Shown here in pieces: positions 56,697 to 64,000 of a stretch of 64,000 nucleotides of DNA. The position numbers and the translations under genes are program-made. Numbering within the stretch: position 1 is the first letter of the stretch; every line of letters begins with the position of its first letter. This DNA comes from Aminobacter carboxidus (GTDB lineage Bacteria; Pseudomonadota; Alphaproteobacteria; Rhizobiales; Rhizobiaceae): the NCBI RefSeq assembly GCF_014863355.1, contig NZ_JACZEP010000002.1, forward strand, positions 186,001 through 250,000, read 5' to 3'. Below the pieces are notes generated by a model, which made no database searches, had not been told where the DNA came from, and saw nothing but the letters and a program-made list of their open reading frames with translations.

Positions 56697-57592
56697 TAGA
56701 AGTTCTCCGCCGGCAGCATCGGCGGCGGCGTTTCGCCCAGAGCCTCGAACACCGAGATTTCGCAGACCCGGCACAGGCCGTCGAGGGCGAGGTCGTTGGC
56801 TTCCATGCCGAAGGGGTCTTCCAACTCTTCCGAAAGCGCGTCGAGGCCGAAGAAGGTGTAGGCGATCAGCGCTGTGAACAGCGGCGTCGCCCAGCCGGCC
56901 GAGCCCGCCAGCCCGAAGGGCAGCAGCAGGCAGAAGATGTAGGCGGTGCGCTGCAGCAACAGCGTGTAGGCGAAGGGCAGGGGCGTTCCCATGATGCGCT
57001 CGCAGCCGGCCTGAAGCGCTGAAATCGCTGCCAGCCGCTCGTCGAGGATGCGAAAATCCATTGCCTCCAGCACGTTCGCCCGTTTGAGCGCGCCGATCTT
57101 CTCGCCCATCCTGCGCATGGTTGCGTCCGGCTTGTTGGCGGCGGCATGAATTTCGTCGACGGCATCGCCGACAAAGGGACGGGCGGCCTCCCTGGTGTCG
57201 ACCCGGCGCAGTTCGCCGCGCAGGAAGTGGCAGAAGGCCAGCGAATCCATCAAGAGCGGCCTGAGTTCGTCGCGGTCGGAGATCATCGCTGTCGCGGCGC
57301 GCGACAGGTTGCGGATCTCGAAGACGAGCTGGCCCCACAGCTTGCGGGCCTCCCACCAGCGGTCATAGGCAGCGTTGTTGCGAAAGCCGAGATAGACGGA
57401 AAGCGCGACGCCAAGCAGCGCGAAGGGCGCCACGCCGGCATCGCCGAGATCGAGCTTGAGCAGCTTGATCGCGACAACCACCGCAGCGCCGTAGAGCGCG
57501 AAGCCCAGGATCTGCGGCAGGATGCGCGGCACCACGGAACCGCGCATGACGAAGAACAGCTTCAGCAGGTTGGTGCGCGGGCGAACGATCAT
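56687..57592 (-). CDS. Bestrophin family (UPF0187) membrane protein
   Basis: 301 residues. N-terminal VRPRTNLLKLFF, then membrane helices and LSVYLGFRNNAAYDRWWEARKLWGQL, the UPF0187 signature. Later RTAYIFCLLLPFGLAGSAGWATPL and the C-terminal ALSEELEDPFGMEANDLAL. Bacterial bestrophins form pentameric ion channels. The ligand or ion here is unknown. Confidence 0.9.
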   Translation of the reverse strand: MIVRPRTNLLKLFFVMRGSVVPRILPQILGFALYGAAVVVAIKLLKLDLGDAGVAPFALLGVALSVYLGFRNNAAYDRWWEARKLWGQLVFEIRNLSRAATAMISDRDELRPLLMDSLAFCHFLRGELRRVDTREAARPFVGDAVDEIHAAANKPDATMRRMGEKIGALKRANVLEAMDFRILDERLAAISALQAGCERIMGTPLPFAYTLLLQRTAYIFCLLLPFGLAGSAGWATPLFTALIAYTFFGLDALSEELEDPFGMEANDLALDGLCRVCEISVFEALGETPPPMLPAENFYYS

Positions 57593-57747
57593 GCGGCGTG
57601 GTACCTCCTTGTGCCGAATAGTGCGCCGCCGCGCGTGCCGGTGTCACCTCCATTCGTGACCTGGATGGCGATTGCGTCGAATTGTCTGAGCAAGCAGGCG
57701 GGCGGCATCACCTTGCGTGGTGGAGAGGCGCGCCTGTGTCAGGCCGG

Positions 57748-58983
57748 TCAGTTCTCGTAGGTTCGTCCTGTCAGCTTGTCGAGCAGCCGGCGAAGGAGGC
57801 CGCCCCGCCTCAGCCGGCGCACCTCTTCGGAAAGCTCGGCTGTCCTGCTCGCCAGTTCACCCATCTGGAACTGCAGTTCCTCGCTCGGGCCAAGACCCTC
57901 GCGCAATCTGAGAAAGCTGCGGTCATAGATCCGCTTCTGCTGCAGGAATCGCTCGATGATCGCGGCCATCGCCCGTTCGTCCTCGTTGGCCTCGCGCCTC
58001 GGCCATGATCTTTCCGCAAGCACGTCGCGATAGACCGCTTCCAGTTGCTCTGCGCCTTTGTCGCTGGCGAAGTCGCGCCGCACGCGTTCGGTGACCGCCA
58101 TGGCATCTTCCGCGCTGTAGCGTGCAATTTCGCGATCGAGTAGGTCGGGCGATGCCGCGTCGGACAGCGCGCCATAGGCGAAGTTGACCGCCGCAAAATC
58201 GGCAAACCTGTCCATCGTCACGAGGCCGCCGGCGCCGAAACGGTCGACATTGATCACGGCGCAGCCCCGCGCAATGGCTTCGAGCGCCATGCGGCCGCTG
58301 GCGAATGCGAGGTCCGTCCCGTCCAGCCGGTTGACGACGTCGTACGCCGCCTTGCCGATCAGTTCGCCGCGAAAGCCAATGCCATGGCGCTTGCAGGCTT
58401 CAGCGATCATGCCGGTGAAGGGAATGGTTCCCGGATGGGCAAAGATCGCCGCGGTTGACAGCCTGTCCGGAGCCAGGGCGGCTGGTCCAATACGCTGGAG
58501 GTCGATCGTGTTTGGCCAGAACTTTACCTTCGATGCTTCGATCCCGCATTCATCCACGAGCCTGCCGCGCAATGCGGCCCGCACATGGAGATAGCGGCTG
58601 ATCCTGGGATGAATGGGGGGCGCATCCAATTCGCTGCTGAAGTCGTGACAGACGAAGATGGCGGGTGTTCCGGGAAAGCGTGCAAGCGCGGCAATGGTGG
58701 GGCCGGTGTGGTGGCCGTGAATGATATCGGGGGCTTCGAGTGATGACAGCGACGTTGCCACCGGTGAACCCGTAGCGCGAATTTCGCCAATTGCAGGACC
58801 GACGATCGGGGCAAAAGCGGTTACCGAATGGCCACGCCTGCGCAGCGCCAGCACCATGTCGCGCACCAGCGTTTCGGTGCCGCTGCGGCCGGTAAGAGCG
58901 GCATTCGTCATCAGGACCCGCAGCGGCCGGTTGCCGTCGGCCTGACGGGTGCTGTCGCTGGCGTCGAGGCTATCGCGCGCCAT
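57748..58983 (-). CDS. Glycosyltransferase family 4-like protein with C-terminal coiled coil
   Basis: 411 residues from the ATG at 58983 (GGAGG upstream). Residues 20-130 form a Rossmann-type donor half with LRVLMTNAALTGRSGTETLVRDMVLALRR-like sequence (split here), HGHHTGPTIAALARFPGTPAIFV. The acceptor half has LAFASGRMALEAIARGCAVI, the EX7E-like region of GT4. The last 70 residues are charged helix, probably coiled coil (SEELQFQMGELASRTAELSE). It stands alone, with no polysaccharide genes beside it, so the sugar is unknown. Confidence 0.85.
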   Translation of the reverse strand: MARDSLDASDSTRQADGNRPLRVLMTNAALTGRSGTETLVRDMVLALRRRGHSVTAFAPIVGPAIGEIRATGSPVATSLSSLEAPDIIHGHHTGPTIAALARFPGTPAIFVCHDFSSELDAPPIHPRISRYLHVRAALRGRLVDECGIEASKVKFWPNTIDLQRIGPAALAPDRLSTAAIFAHPGTIPFTGMIAEACKRHGIGFRGELIGKAAYDVVNRLDGTDLAFASGRMALEAIARGCAVINVDRFGAGGLVTMDRFADFAAVNFAYGALSDAASPDLLDREIARYSAEDAMAVTERVRRDFASDKGAEQLEAVYRDVLAERSWPRREANEDERAMAAIIERFLQQKRIYDRSFLRLREGLGPSEELQFQMGELASRTAELSEEVRRLRRGGLLRRLLDKLTGRTYEN

Positions 58984-59055
58984 CGTCCTGCCTCCGGTAG
59001 CTCGGCCCACCGCCTCCGGTGCGAAGGGCCCAGTCTATCGAAGCAATGTCCGGAA

Positions 59056-59532
59056 TCAACCTTGGAGGGAGTTGGCCTCTGCCGCCGGCATGTTGTGGCG
59101 GACATAAAGCATATCAGGCAAGCCCTCTTCATTTGCCGAGCCCTCGCCGAAGGCTTCGGCAACGAAGCCTTCTCGTTCGTAGAAACGACGCGCGCCTTTG
59201 TTGGCTTGGAAGCAGAAAAGTTTCACGTGAGTCATTCCAACCGTCACGTGACGCAAAAGCCTGTTGCCGATGCCGCGACCGTTCCAGGCTGGATCGAGAT
59301 AGAGCTGTTCGATCCACTCATTCCTGACGGCGACGAAGCCGACGATCTTTCCTTCGACCGTTGCAACGGTGACGTGCTGCTTGGCCAACAGGACGTGCCG
59401 GACGAAGCGCAGGTCCTCGTCAGGCGTGTGCATCTGCGGCATCCAGTCGAAGGCGGCGAGCGCCGCCCTCAGGATGCGAGCGATGTCGGCTGCGTCGCTG
59501 GCCTTCGCCGGACGCAGCACGACATCGGGCAT
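59056..59532 (-). CDS. GNAT-family N-acetyltransferase
   Basis: 158 residues. GNAT folds: LRPAKASDAADIARILRAAL at the N-terminus, IEQLYLDPAWNGRGIGNRLL (acetyl-CoA loop R/Q-x-x-G-x-G/A near 88-95), and VKLFCFQANKGARRFYEREGF. Substrate unknown. It starts 4 bp after the asd stop on the same strand, so it is probably in the same message. Confidence 0.88.
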   Translation of the reverse strand: MPDVVLRPAKASDAADIARILRAALAAFDWMPQMHTPDEDLRFVRHVLLAKQHVTVATVEGKIVGFVAVRNEWIEQLYLDPAWNGRGIGNRLLRHVTVGMTHVKLFCFQANKGARRFYEREGFVAEAFGEGSANEEGLPDMLYVRHNMPAAEANSLQG

Positions 59533-59536
59533 GTCG

Positions 59537-60571
59537 TCAGGCAGCCTTCTTCTTCGGCGAGATCAGGCCGCGCTCGACCAGAAGCTCGGCGATCTGGACG
59601 GCGTTGAGGGCCGCACCCTTGCGCAGGTTGTCGGAGACAATCCACATCGACAGACCGTTGTCGATGGTCTGGTCTTCGCGGATGCGCGAGATGTAGGTGG
59701 CGTCTTCGCCGGCCGAGTCGAGAGGGGTGGCGTAGCCGCCGTCCTCGCGCTTGTCGATGACCAGGCAGCCCGGCGCCTCGCGCAGGATGTCGCGCGCCTC
59801 ATCGGCGGTGATCGGCTTGTCGAACTCGATGTTGACGGCTTCCGAATGGCCGATGAACACCGGCACGCGCACGCAGGTGGCGGTCAGCTTGATCTTGGGA
59901 TCGAGCATCTTCTTGGTCTCGGCGACCATCTTCCACTCTTCCTTGGTCGAGCCGTCATCCATGAAGACGTCGATGTGGGGAATGACGTTGAAGGCGATGC
60001 GCTTGGTGAACTTCTTGGCTTCGACCGGGTCGGCAACGAAGACGGCGCGGGTCTGGGTGAACAGCTCGTCCATGCCTTCCTTGCCGGCGCCCGAAACGGA
60101 CTGGTAGGTCGAAACGACGATGCGCTTGATGGTGGCCGCGTCATGCAGCGGCTTGAGCGCCACGACCAGCTGGGCGGTCGAGCAGTTCGGGTTGGCGATG
60201 ATGTTCTTCTTGGTGAAGCCGGCAATCGCGTCAGGGTTCACTTCCGGAACGATGAGCGGCACGTCCTGGTCATAGCGGAAGGCCGACGAGTTATCGATGA
60301 CGACGCAGCCCTGCTTGCCGATCTTGGGCGACCATTCCTTGGAGATGTTGCCGCCGGCCGACATGATGCAGATGTCGGTGTCGGAGAAGTCGTAGGTGTC
60401 GAGAACCTTGACCTTCAGCGTCTTGTCGCCGAACGACACTTCGGTGCCGAGCGAGCGGCGCGACGCAAGGGCGACGATCTCATCGACCGGAAAGCCGCGT
60501 TCCTCGAGGATGTTGAGCATTTCCCGGCCGACATTGCCCGTGGCGCCGACGACTGCAACCTTGAAACCCAT
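59537..60571 (-). CDS. asd: Aspartate-semialdehyde dehydrogenase
   Basis: 344 residues. NADP-binding VAVVGATGNVGREML (5-19), catalytic C130 in IANPNCSTAQ, the QSVSGAGKEGMDEL loop and the active-site VRVPVFIGHSEAV are intact. It makes aspartate semialdehyde, the branch point to lysine, threonine and methionine. The leader upstream contains a Thr-rich reading frame and hairpin (see 60611-60816), indicating possible attenuation. A GNAT gene follows 4 bp after the stop. Confidence 0.96.
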   Translation of the reverse strand: MGFKVAVVGATGNVGREMLNILEERGFPVDEIVALASRRSLGTEVSFGDKTLKVKVLDTYDFSDTDICIMSAGGNISKEWSPKIGKQGCVVIDNSSAFRYDQDVPLIVPEVNPDAIAGFTKKNIIANPNCSTAQLVVALKPLHDAATIKRIVVSTYQSVSGAGKEGMDELFTQTRAVFVADPVEAKKFTKRIAFNVIPHIDVFMDDGSTKEEWKMVAETKKMLDPKIKLTATCVRVPVFIGHSEAVNIEFDKPITADEARDILREAPGCLVIDKREDGGYATPLDSAGEDATYISRIREDQTIDNGLSMWIVSDNLRKGAALNAVQIAELLVERGLISPKKKAA

Positions 60572-60610
60572 ATCGAAAATCTCCTGTCCCTCTCCGCTCG
60601 CTTTTTGGAG

Positions 60611-60632
60611 AAAACCCGCTGGCCGTTGCGGG
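60611..60632 (-). terminator. Candidate attenuator terminator before asd
   Basis: On the minus strand CCCGC and GCGGG pair around an 8-nt loop and are followed by TTTT, about 40 bp before the asd start. A second palindrome (CCCGGG...CCCGGG, 60641-60657) lies between it and the leader frame and could pair alternatively. Confidence 0.5.
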
Positions 60633-60681
60633 CTTCATCCCCCGGGCCGGACCCGGGAGAGGGTGAGCAGGCCAAGGGAGA

Positions 60682-60816
60682 TCACACCGTTTTGGTGGTG
60701 GTGGTTTTGGCCATGGTTTTGGTCGAAAGCAGGGACGCGGTTCCGCGCCCGGCACGATGGTTGGCATCGTGGCCGGGGAAGTCGAATGCGAAAAGCGCCA
60801 TCAAGAGGCCGCGCAT
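60682..60816 (-). CDS. Thr/Lys-rich leader peptide of asd (candidate)
   Basis: A 44-codon frame starting MRGLLMALFAF and ending MAKTTTTKTV. Its last 14 residues hold 7 Thr and 3 Lys, with four ACC codons in a row, and the stop lies 50 bp before a hairpin-U element upstream of asd. AGGGA precedes the start by 8 bases. This is the layout of amino-acid attenuators such as thrL. Translation and regulation are unproven. A shorter version starting at the internal ATG (60714) is possible. Confidence 0.55.
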   Translation of the reverse strand: MRGLLMALFAFDFPGHDANHRAGRGTASLLSTKTMAKTTTTKTV

Positions 60817-60840
60817 CGGAGGGATCCCTGTTCGCCGCCG

Positions 60841-60869
60841 CTTTTATCCGGTTTGCATGGAGAGTCAAT
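60841..60869 (-). promoter_or_regulatory. Possible promoter for the asd leader
   Basis: On the minus strand ATTGAC (60864-60869) and TAAAAG (60841-60846) are 17 bp apart. Transcription would begin near 60834 and read the leader frame and asd. Confidence 0.35.
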
Positions 60870-60964
60870 CGGGAACGAAGCAGAGCGCCTGGCTCCGGCT
60901 GATGTGATTTGACCTTTGTCGCGGGCAACCTAGGCTTCGCCGCGGATCGATGACGGAGGAACCC

Positions 60965-61351
60965 ATGGAAATCCTGTCAAAACGCTTCCACCTTGCTGGC
61001 GCACTTGCCGCATTGGCCATGTTCACCCTGCCGGCGCTCGCCCATCACGGCTGGTCCTGGACCCAAGACGGCTTTTTCGAACTCACGGGCACCATCGCCG
61101 ACATCTATATCGGCAATCCCCATGCGACACTCGACGTCGATGTCGAAGGCGACATCTGGCGGGTGGAACTGGCGCCGCCGGCCCGGACCATCGCCGCCGG
61201 CTTCACCGATGAGGTGGCCAAAAAAGGCGACGAGGTCGTGGCGATCGGCAACCGCTCGCGCGACGATACCGAAAGGCGCATGAAGGCCGTCCGGATCACC
61301 GTCAACGGCAAGACCTATGACGTCTATTCGGACCGCGTGCCGCCGAGCTGA
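60965..61351 (+). CDS. DUF6152-type exported protein
   Basis: 128 residues from the ATG at 60965 (GGAGG upstream). Signal peptide about 1-26 (cleavage after ALA), then HHGWSWTQDG at the mature N-terminus and a small beta-rich domain (GTIADIYIGNPHATLDVDVEGDIWRVELAPPART, described in parts). This fits the DUF6152 family. Function is unknown; the HHGW start could bind metal. A gene for a DUF6644-type membrane protein starts 14 bp downstream. Confidence 0.85.
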   Translation: MEILSKRFHLAGALAALAMFTLPALAHHGWSWTQDGFFELTGTIADIYIGNPHATLDVDVEGDIWRVELAPPARTIAAGFTDEVAKKGDEVVAIGNRSRDDTERRMKAVRITVNGKTYDVYSDRVPPS

Positions 61352-61365
61352 GTGGGCGCGCGCTG

Positions 61366-61821
61366 ATGGAGCCTTTCCAGGTAATCGAGCAGCTGACCTT
61401 CGTCAGACTGCTCAAGGCTTCCTTCGTCGCCTATCCGGTCGTCAACGCCGTGCATATCGCCGCTATAGGCGCGCTGCTGACGTCGGTCACGCTGCTCGAC
61501 CTGCGCATTCTCGGCGCTCTTCGCACGCTGCCCGAACGCCCGTTCATGGTGCTGATGCGAAAGGTCGCCCTGCTCGCCTTTGGGGCGGCTGCCCTGAGCG
61601 GGCTTCTGTTGTTTTCCGTTCGGGCGTCGCATTACGCGCAGCTGCCGGTCTTCCTGGCCAAGATGGCGCTGATCGCTTTGGCTGGAACCAATTTTGTTGT
61701 CTTTGCCGCTGTCGAAAGCGGTAAGCAGGGACATGGCCTCGCGTTGCGCTTTCTAGCGCTGCTGTCGATCGTGCTCTGGTGTGCGACCCTGTTGTGCGGC
61801 CGCTTCATCGGCTTTCTGTGA
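61366..61821 (+). CDS. DUF6644-type membrane protein
   Basis: 151 residues with four hydrophobic segments, beginning MEPFQVIEQLTFVRLLKASF and with histidines in VVNAVHIAAIGALL and FSVRASHYAQLP. It resembles DUF6644/DUF2214-like integral membrane proteins. The gene follows the DUF6152 gene closely, so the two probably act together at the membrane. Function is unknown. It ends 20 bp before the convergent ABC transporter gene. Confidence 0.82.
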   Translation: MEPFQVIEQLTFVRLLKASFVAYPVVNAVHIAAIGALLTSVTLLDLRILGALRTLPERPFMVLMRKVALLAFGAAALSGLLLFSVRASHYAQLPVFLAKMALIALAGTNFVVFAAVESGKQGHGLALRFLALLSIVLWCATLLCGRFIGFL

Positions 61822-61840
61822 GCGCGCTTGCGGTGCCGAC

Positions 61841-63832
61841 CTACTTTTCCTTCAGCCGGACGCGCGGGAAGCGCAGTGGCGGCCATTCTTCTGTCGGCTG
61901 GGGCTGGGCGAGAAGCGTGGTGAGTTCGGCCGGCAGGCTGGCCAGCGCCTTCTTCGAGCCGATACCGTCTGATATGCTGAGGATGCTGTCGTAGAACTCG
62001 GCGCCGAGTGCCGATTTCGGCGGCACTGCCTCATGCATGACGCTGATCACCGTCACGCCGGGGCAATTGTCCTTGATCACCTGGTGGAAAGCGATCTTGG
62101 CCTCGAGATCGAGTGCCGCGGTCGCTTCGTCGAGGAACAGCAGACCGGGCTGCAAAAGCAGGATACGGGCGGCGACCAGCTTCTGCTTCTGGCCACCCGA
62201 CAGAAGCTGGTCCCAGCTCTTGCCCTGGCGGGTTTCGTCGTCGAGATGCTCGATAAAGTCGCCAAGGCCGGCTTTGTGCATGGCGACCGCGACCTTCGCC
62301 TCGGAATGGTTGCCGGGATGGTCGGGCAGGCAGACCAACTGCTTGAGTGAGACCTGCGGTAGCTTGACGTCCTGGGTGGCGTAGAACGACCTGATGCCTT
62401 CGGGAAAGACAATGGCGCCACGGCCGTATGGCCACAGCCCGTTGATCGCCTTGACCAGCGAGGTCTTGCCGCATCCGGACTGGCCCGACACGAACGTCCA
62501 TTCGCCACGGCGGAAGCGCAAATTGGCAACCGTCAGGAATGGGCTGGCCTCGCGGCCCTGATGCATCAATTCGAGATTGCGGACTGTCAGGCCGAACAGG
62601 GCGTTCTGGCTGCCATAGCTGAATTCCGACTGGCCGGTGGCGGCATAGAATGCCGGCGGCTTCTGGACATTTTCGATTGCCTTGGCGAGATCGGTGACGC
62701 GTTCGCTGTTGGCCCTGAGCGTGGCGATCGCCGGCATCACCTGGATGAACCACGAGCATTGGCTGATCAGAGAATTCACCAGTTCGGCGCCGGTGATGTA
62801 GCCCTTCAGATTGATGTTGCCGTGCATGTAGGGAACGAGTCCCGGCCCGTAAGCGACGATGCGCGCGGCGATGAAGCCGTAGATCGATTCAAACGACATG
62901 TAGCCGGCATTGACGACGTTGAGGCGCGACCAGGTCTTGTCGATGTCGAGATAGAGCCGGTCATGCATCGAGCGCTGCACGCTCTCGCCATGGGATGCCG
63001 CGACGTGGAAGCTGCGGCGCAGCAGCACCGTCAGTTCGCCGCGGTAGCTGCCTTCGGCCTGCTGCATGCGGATGCTGAGGCGCTCCATCACGCCGCCCAG
63101 TTTCATGGCGATGTAGGTATTGAGCGGCACATAGGCGGCAACGGCGGCAAAGGCCAGGATGACGCTGCCATAAGGGCCGAGGACTTCCAGCCCCGGCACC
63201 ACGGTCGAGGTTTCGAGCAGCTTCTGGCCGACGAAGAACAAAGATGTGGTGACGCCCATCACACCCATGGCGAGCCCGATGGCGCCGCCGGTCATGCCCT
63301 TGATCGAATCCTGGACGCGCTGGTCGATATTGTCGGGCGCCATCCCCGGACCGTCTCCGGAGCCGCCATGGTGCTGGACGTGGAAATGGGTGTGATTGGG
63401 GTCGAGCAAGGCGGCGCTGAAGCGATTGTTCAGCCAGCCGCGCCACTTGCGATGCAAGGTGGTGGAAAAGAGGTGCCGGATGCCGATGAAGCCTGCATCC
63501 TTGATCACGACCAGAACAAGCAAGGTACCAGCACTGGTCAGCAGCGACGCCAGCGGCGCCATGTTGGCCGGATCGTGGAAAAAGGCGATCGAATTGACCA
63601 GTTCGCCTGATGCTTCGGCCATCCACACGCTGGCCTTGCTGGAAAGTGCGGTAAGGAGGGCGATCACCAGCGTCAGCCCCCAGGCTTCCTTCCAGCGATC
63701 CGAGAGCCAGTAGGCCCGCATCAGGCCCCAGAAGCTACGCATCGCCGAAACCGGCGTCAGGGGAGGCGGCCTAGCGGCGCCGCGACGCCATCTGTTCAGC
63801 GATGGATATCGAGGTCTGTCGACCCGAATCAC
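61841..63832 (-). CDS. ABC transporter, fused membrane and ATPase domains (SbmA/YddA-like)
   Basis: 663 residues. The N-terminal half has about six membrane segments of the ABC_membrane_2 type, with YLDIDKTWSRLNVVNAGY as in SbmA/BacA-like relatives. The C-terminal ATPase has Walker A GQSGCGKTS (K456), the signature LLSGGQKQKL and Walker B GLLFLDEATAALD. Family members (YddA, vitamin B12 or peptide exporters/importers) work as homodimers. Cargo is not deducible. The start is the ATG at 63832; a later start at MRSFWGLMRAY is also possible. Confidence 0.9.
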   Translation of the reverse strand: MIRVDRPRYPSLNRWRRGAARPPPLTPVSAMRSFWGLMRAYWLSDRWKEAWGLTLVIALLTALSSKASVWMAEASGELVNSIAFFHDPANMAPLASLLTSAGTLLVLVVIKDAGFIGIRHLFSTTLHRKWRGWLNNRFSAALLDPNHTHFHVQHHGGSGDGPGMAPDNIDQRVQDSIKGMTGGAIGLAMGVMGVTTSLFFVGQKLLETSTVVPGLEVLGPYGSVILAFAAVAAYVPLNTYIAMKLGGVMERLSIRMQQAEGSYRGELTVLLRRSFHVAASHGESVQRSMHDRLYLDIDKTWSRLNVVNAGYMSFESIYGFIAARIVAYGPGLVPYMHGNINLKGYITGAELVNSLISQCSWFIQVMPAIATLRANSERVTDLAKAIENVQKPPAFYAATGQSEFSYGSQNALFGLTVRNLELMHQGREASPFLTVANLRFRRGEWTFVSGQSGCGKTSLVKAINGLWPYGRGAIVFPEGIRSFYATQDVKLPQVSLKQLVCLPDHPGNHSEAKVAVAMHKAGLGDFIEHLDDETRQGKSWDQLLSGGQKQKLVAARILLLQPGLLFLDEATAALDLEAKIAFHQVIKDNCPGVTVISVMHEAVPPKSALGAEFYDSILSISDGIGSKKALASLPAELTTLLAQPQPTEEWPPLRFPRVRLKEK

Positions 63833-63923
63833 AGTTTCTTACCCCATGCCCTTTGCCTATCGAAGGGTAACATGAGTTGAGCATTTCACAGTCAACATAT
63901 GGTTACCGGCTAATCAATGCGCC

Positions 63924-63951
63924 GCGAGCGTTGCGTGAGGGCAACGCTCGC
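63924..63951. repeat. Perfect 11-bp hairpin near the right edge
   Basis: GCGAGCGTTGC and GCAACGCTCGC with a 6-nt loop GTGAGG. It has no T-run. It may end a minus-strand gene entering from the right. Confidence 0.5.
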
Positions 63952-63972
63952 CAGCCGGCTCCAATGCCCCGC

Positions 63973-64000
63973 TTAGGCGGCAACTGGAGCTTGCGGCGCA
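63973..64000 (-). CDS. Possible C-terminal end of a gene continuing beyond the window
   Basis: Minus-strand codons read APQAPVAA then TAA. The Ala/Pro-rich ending and the hairpin just after it resemble a gene end, but only nine codons are visible, so this is weak. Confidence 0.3.

Follow-up and report, generated by a model that had tools for sequence, protein, structure and literature searches.

The asd gene of Aminobacter carboxidus is preceded by a leader that we read, with a probability of about two in three, as a leader-peptide attenuator most likely acting on translation initiation. It lies on the reverse strand of the 64,000-nucleotide stretch of DNA analyzed here (the window). Lysine, diaminopimelate (for the cell wall), threonine, and methionine all derive from the branch point at which Asd acts, and the enzyme catalyzes the last step common to lysine/diaminopimelate and threonine/methionine synthesis. 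The reading is supported by a leader frame and terminal codons that are conserved among relatives, by coordinated changes in the RNA helices P1, B:D, and C1:F, and by predicted toggling of B:D with ribosome position. That the ribosome stalls, in which direction asd is controlled, and that the output is translational are inferred. The Shine-Dalgarno (SD) sequence of asd would be freed when charged tRNA-Thr, and perhaps tRNA-Lys, runs short.

The asd gene occupies positions 59537 to 60571 (reverse strand, as are all window features below unless marked otherwise). It was found by profile match, and its score of 533.7 bits against the NF011456 cut-off of 223 confirms aspartate-semialdehyde dehydrogenase. 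The SD sequence AGGAG (60581-60585), read from the sequence, is placed 9 nt before the ATG. A promoter-like sequence recognized by eye at 60841-60868 consists of TTGACT (60868-60863), a 16 nt spacer, and TAAAAG (60846-60841); a strict sigma-70 scan gave no sites, and a TTGAC promoter-like element is present shortly 5' of the leader start in 16/16 loci displayed. The likely SD sequence of the leader is AGGGA (60825-60829), 8 nt before the leader ATG. The divergent neighbor of the leader (60950-61351, forward strand) encodes a DUF6152 protein of unknown function, downstream of which there is a weak DUF6644 match at 61366-61821. On the other side of asd, two related loci (L031, 2538-2624; L048, 2552-2620; - strand) carry stretches just 3' of the gene, on the opposite strand, with sub-threshold likeness to the Brucella sRNA BSnc120 (22.7 and 26.7 bits; cut-off 114).

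A sequence-only reading of this DNA had described a 44-codon frame ending MAKTTTTKTV with four ACC codons, and this frame is present at 60816-60682. Its 3' end reads ATG GCC AAA ACC ACC ACC ACC AAA ACG GTG TGA, and its stop codon is separated from asd by 110 nt. The asd upstream regions of 175 loci, taken from same-genus and family genomes and from 80 named records, gave 167 distinct sequences for comparison. Conservation of the threonine run in relatives, which had been proposed as a check, was borne out: a frame with at least four Thr in its last nine codons is found in 119/167 regions, in 0/167 antisense, and in 4/835 shuffles. With at least three Thr the counts are 141/167, 0/167, and 51/835. 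The 26/167 loci with fewer than three Thr in the scored frame include Methylobacterium, Xanthobacter, Beijerinckia, and Blastochloris records and, within the family, L145, L160, and L168. An alignment was made of 129 loci; the 38/167 left out have a Thr frame that is missing, out of place, or of poor quality.

Because selection of these 129 loci relied in part on a frame end with KT and two or more Thr, the upstream codons provide the fair test of coding. Over the 26 upstream codons (-38 to -13), the leader frame contains no stops, while the other two frames contain 72 and 42. An in-frame ATG is found at codon 30-55 in 118/129 loci, and 10 of the 11 loci that lack one have GTG or TTG at codon 39-43. 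Within a window of codons 36-46, 111/129 loci have an ATG in the leader frame, as opposed to 8 and 0 in frames +1 and +2. The inner ATG at 60714 would give 10 codons only, and the start position that is steady among relatives is the upstream one at 60816. Open upstream codons together with a steadily placed start thus make the full 44-codon frame, and not merely its last 10 codons, the likely leader. In most family loci the leader is about 39-45 codons long and has its own SD-like sequence. The 44-aa peptide has no Pfam or NCBIfam match. A search of the A. carboxidus genome for other leader copies returned one strong match, that at asd, the other four having E values of 0.37 or worse, and the 3.5-kb locus of its hom gene holds no frame with at least four Thr in the 10 codons before the stop. 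A hairpin with 12-nt arms that are 83% complementary lies at 60776-60748, in the 5' portion of the leader frame. A hairpin is frequent there in relatives as well: this region folds better than codon shuffles in 101/129 loci, strongly in only 24/129.

The putative sensor is a run of codons K T T T T K T at 60688-60708, recognized by its conservation in the 129 loci. Threonine is found at codon -5 in 123/129, at -6 in 114/129, and at -2 in 120/129 loci, and lysine at codon -7 in 103/129 and at -3 in 116/129; the commonest residues at the aligned leader ends are K-T-T-T-K-T-V-stop. In these loci, selected partly on that end, the last 11 codons are 46.7% Thr and 25.2% Lys, compared with 2.6% and 0.8% further upstream. 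The last 12 codons of the window's leader include 6 Thr and 3 Lys. The leader is therefore a short frame rich in codons for products of the pathway, and its translation is known only from print, for the probable Sinorhizobium meliloti counterpart. Some variants depart from the common form. Aurantimonas/Aureimonas/Roseitalea-like loci (L053, L057, L064, L068, L141, L142, L144, L149, L158, L159, and L209) have a shorter leader, about 78-91 nt before asd, that contains Thr, Lys, and Ile codons and whose start and stop are 11-13 codons apart. The Bartonella leaders (L065, L067) end HKKTTKKII, Lys and Ile codons replacing several Thr codons.

Four RNA elements placed after the Thr/Lys run, B, C, D, and F, were recognized by reading the alignment, and H1, formed by two of them, also appears in folds. 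P1 is a small hairpin inside the Thr codons (60685-60700), in which CACC (60700-60697) pairs with GGUG (60688-60685). The post-stop segment B, UCCCUUGGCC (60670-60679), is the partner of D, GGCCCGGGGG (60639-60648), which is also the 3' arm of the hairpin H1 (60638-60660; core CCCGGG 60657-60652 with CCCGGG 60646-60641). In the alignment, H1 is formed by C and D, and the 5' part of C is C1, CCCUCUCC (60656-60663). C1 is complementary to F, GGAGAGGG (60588-60595), which lies beside the asd SD sequence; in the window, C1:F covers this adjoining segment more than the SD sequence itself.

Covariation was assessed by re-placing the substitutions of each column on a tree of asd and leader in 2000 simulations, B:D being scored without pairs 34-76 and 40-70. 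Standard pairs reach 0.93 in P1 (null 0.77) and 0.945 in B:D (null 0.845), values that 0/2000 simulations matched in either helix. For C1:F they reach 0.90 (null 0.81; p 0.001) and for H1 0.88 (null 0.83; p 0.04). When all possible helices were scanned, B:D came out on top at lengths 4, 6, and 8, P1 third at length 4, and C1:F fifth of 8 at length 8. Pair 35-75 is seen as UG, GC, UA, CG, and GU, 89% of cells being standard, and in L098 CCCUCACC with GGUGAGGG pairs 8/8 (7/8 in L102 of the same genus). Wobble bases of Thr codons vary in step with the final base of the Val codon in P1 (GC in 90 loci, CG in 21), also inside Mesorhizobium (L014 and L017 versus their neighbors). Selection on the peptide alone would not produce these paired changes. 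A further candidate helix, P2, in which the GGCC at the Ala codon would pair with that in B, has 61% standard pairs and no covariation, and was dropped as a conserved helix.

Other analyses gave contrary or weaker signals. A generic G-test of all column pairs against the tree null yielded no significant pairs. A MAFFT alignment was made from 57 representatives, chosen after leaving out L037, L140, L054, L074, L076, L134, and L130, of which 55 were aligned; B:D has only 78% paired cells in it. P1 plus B:D is paired in 82.6% of these cells, against 81.7% in shuffles (54/500 as high; covariation score 1/500) and at most 61.4% when the segments are slid. The weakness of this 55-locus count comes from gaps in B among the Rhizobium-type sequences. 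Much of the helix variation separates two clades, and within clades the preference for the own partner over others is weak (B:D 58/96 and 20/31; C:F 52/96 and 19/31). Against the other loci, B:F is better than non-self in only 1/31 Rhizobium-type loci. No leader family of Rfam was matched in the window (57000-64000; one sub-threshold, unrelated match) or in six other loci (five sub-threshold matches); a single sub-threshold match, to ctRNA_pGA1 in L065 (25.4 bits; cut-off 45), lies over a leader.

The dependence of B:D on the ribosome was predicted by folding RNA ending 40 nt after B in 124 loci, L037, L140, and three loci with no recognizable B motif being left out. B:D has a mean probability of 0.71 when the Thr/Lys run holds a stalled ribosome, of 0.13 in naked RNA, and of 0.06 with a ribosome at the stop codon; the corresponding values for the window are 0.80, 0.0007, and 0.009. 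The probability is higher in the stalled than in the naked state in 122/124 loci, and it is high only when the A site is at codons around -11 to -3, which is the Thr/Lys run. The codon order of the leader itself holds B:D down, since the naked value of 0.13 compares with 0.32 after codon shuffling and is the lower of the two in 106/124 loci. Access to the asd SD region was predicted in 95 loci, 29/124 with fewer than six B:D pairs being left out. With B:D held, the region is unpaired at 0.61, compared with 0.47 at the stop codon, and the value is higher in 88/95 loci. Unconstrained equilibrium folds of the whole leader give the reverse order (0.38 unpaired when stalled versus 0.49 at the stop codon; 129 loci), a direction opposite to the switch model; on SD access, the two kinds of fold disagree. 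B can also pair with F, a match found in the all-helix scan. Given this possible pairing and the reversed equilibrium order, the ON state would have to be kinetic, as it is in other attenuators. As a further point against the switch, C1:F might stay paired in a pseudoknot when B:D forms. By computation, then, the leader has mutually exclusive helices that depend on ribosome position, with the G-test, the MAFFT alignment, and the equilibrium folds pointing the other way, and one of the states includes a helix, C1:F, covering the SD region.

In the switch that we propose, the promoter just upstream would give an mRNA whose first frame is the leader of about 39-45 codons ending in Thr/Lys codons. 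When threonine is plentiful, the ribosome would reach the stop codon and cover B, so that D pairs with C in H1 while F is taken up by C1; the ribosome-binding region of asd would then be hidden and its expression low. When threonine (or lysine) is scarce, the ribosome would stall on the run, melt P1, and free B; B:D would then form with C1 caught in its loop, leaving F and the SD sequence exposed and asd on. In an untranslated leader, the Thr-codon region would fold and keep B from D, and asd would again be low.

The sequence-only reading had placed a GC hairpin with a U-run 40 bp before asd, as part of a likely attenuator. The hairpin, H2 (60612-60635), does exist, with arms AAGCCCGC (60635-60628) and GCGGGTTT (60619-60612) and loop 60627-60620, starting 46 nt past the leader stop codon and ending 40 nt before the asd start (60571). 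The U-run, TTTTCTCC, is weaker than described: three of its T can pair with AAG at the stem base, leaving TCTCC. If H2 were an intrinsic terminator, B would on stalling pair with the GGCC in H2 and block its formation. The TTTT at the 3' side of H2 fits such transcription attenuation, as does the GGCC, matching B, that the H2 loop carries by eye in many non-Rhizobium-type loci; B hardly varies, however, so that this pairing lies outside the covariation tests. A consensus terminator scan of the window found none on the reverse strand and two on the forward strand, where 2.2 were expected. By a looser criterion (5 T in 8), the leader of the window does have a terminator-like site, and such sites occur in 43/129 loci, but they are divided unevenly, with 42/98 in the non-Rhizobium-type loci (window included), 1/31 in the Rhizobium-type loci, and 0/28 in distant loci. 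An intrinsic terminator between leader and gene is therefore not general among the relatives, and the window's own candidate is weak and ambiguous. What is conserved instead is C1:F, with 90% standard cells, which pairs with the ribosome-binding region of asd. Since terminator-like sites are sporadic and C1:F is conserved, we place translation first and consider transcription attenuation through H2 unlikely. Termination may nevertheless be an extra or alternative output on the Mesorhizobium/Aminobacter side. The attenuator with Thr sensor codons proposed earlier is thus well supported, its run, frame, and helices being kept, and H2 as its terminator is not well supported.

Termination could also be gated by the ribosome through Rho, which would end the untranslated mRNA before asd once the leader is fully translated, unless a stalled ribosome or an exposed SD sequence prevented it. 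A uORF-dependent, presumably Rho-dependent attenuation has been described for a DUF1127 gene of S. meliloti (PMC12218461, in the part cited here), and such an effect could add to SD hiding. As it leaves the coordinated changes of C1:F unexplained, we regard it as improbable. Least probable is that the frame encodes a small protein with its own function and that the surrounding RNA is no switch. The frame is long for a leader peptide, and the S. meliloti protein SEP5 is translated and soluble according to the account cited (PMC10117765). Against this, conservation is confined to the downstream helices and the frame end, with its codon wobble positions, the N-terminal part being free to vary, and the peptide matches none of the protein families searched.

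Beyond the family, a covariance model of the leader matched 48/297 genomes of the order at E 0.01. Of the matched genomes outside the family, 28/34 have the match immediately 5' of asd and represent 12 further families; the other 6/34 have no asd in the fetched stretch and were taken as chance. Among 35 non-redundant distant loci, 20 found with the covariance model and 15 through asd alone, the own partner fits better than those of other loci for B:D in 23/35 (p 0.0008) and for C1:F in 24/35 (p 0.005). For the control B:F, the own partner is no better (16/35; p 0.51). A wider reading, less likely than not, is of an old translational attenuator spread across the order, by which the end products of two branches are sensed together. 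Shortage of either charged tRNA (Thr or Lys) would open asd, because Thr and Lys codons both lie within the ribosome positions that favor the ON helix.

SEP5, whose end region contains six Thr and three Lys codons, is a frame reported in the 5'-UTR of an aspartate-pathway gene of S. meliloti, with translation shown by Ribo-seq and Western blot, and its authors suggest a leader peptide (PMC10117765). The last 12 codons of the window's leader hold the same numbers, 6 Thr and 3 Lys, and SEP5 is probably the same leader. Its downstream gene, termed aspartate dehydrogenase and following a frame "conserved only in Sinorhizobium" (PMC10117765), would then be asd. The description as far as cited names no RNA structure (PMC10117765). 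The sequence-only reading knew of no asd attenuator described in this group; a Thr/Lys-rich leader peptide has been suggested in S. meliloti (PMC10117765). The open-access literature searched showed no other asd leader in the group, and the comparative attenuator survey of Vitreschak 2004, outside that search, may treat one; by term search, "asd" is absent from the texts of PMC1273637 and PMC2965389. The switch structure and the asd-linked leader matches in 12 further families are new here. The Sinorhizobium-only view of the frame, as published in the part cited, is widened provided that SEP5 and this leader are the same. If a leader switch acts on this single gene across bacteria that are symbiotic or plant-associated, the aspartate pathway would be under ribosome-mediated control in a further group, where SEP5, in its cited description, is the only suggestion of such control in the literature searched. 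The leader also offers a testable case of a proteobacterial amino-acid attenuator that may act through ribosome binding and not through termination.

The leader of the enteric thr operon (thrL) is a transcription attenuator. The asd leader resembles it in its Thr-rich leader peptide, competing helices, and link to enzymes of the threonine pathway. It differs in serving the single gene asd rather than thrABC, in having no dependable terminator and a helix that pairs with the SD region, in its long leader frame, in its Lys rather than Ile codons, and in having no Rfam match. In the LEU element of actinobacterial leuA, as described in the part cited, the run of Leu codons itself pairs with the SD sequence (PMC1262725), whereas in the asd leader a separate segment, C1, does so, and B:D is the counter-structure. 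The trpL/rnTrpL leader of S. meliloti offers a likeness from a related bacterium, leader-peptide attenuation of an amino acid gene; it is, in the account cited, a leaderless frame of 14 codons and a transcription attenuator (PMC10117765), in contrast to the asd leader with its 39-45 or so codons and its own SD-like sequence.
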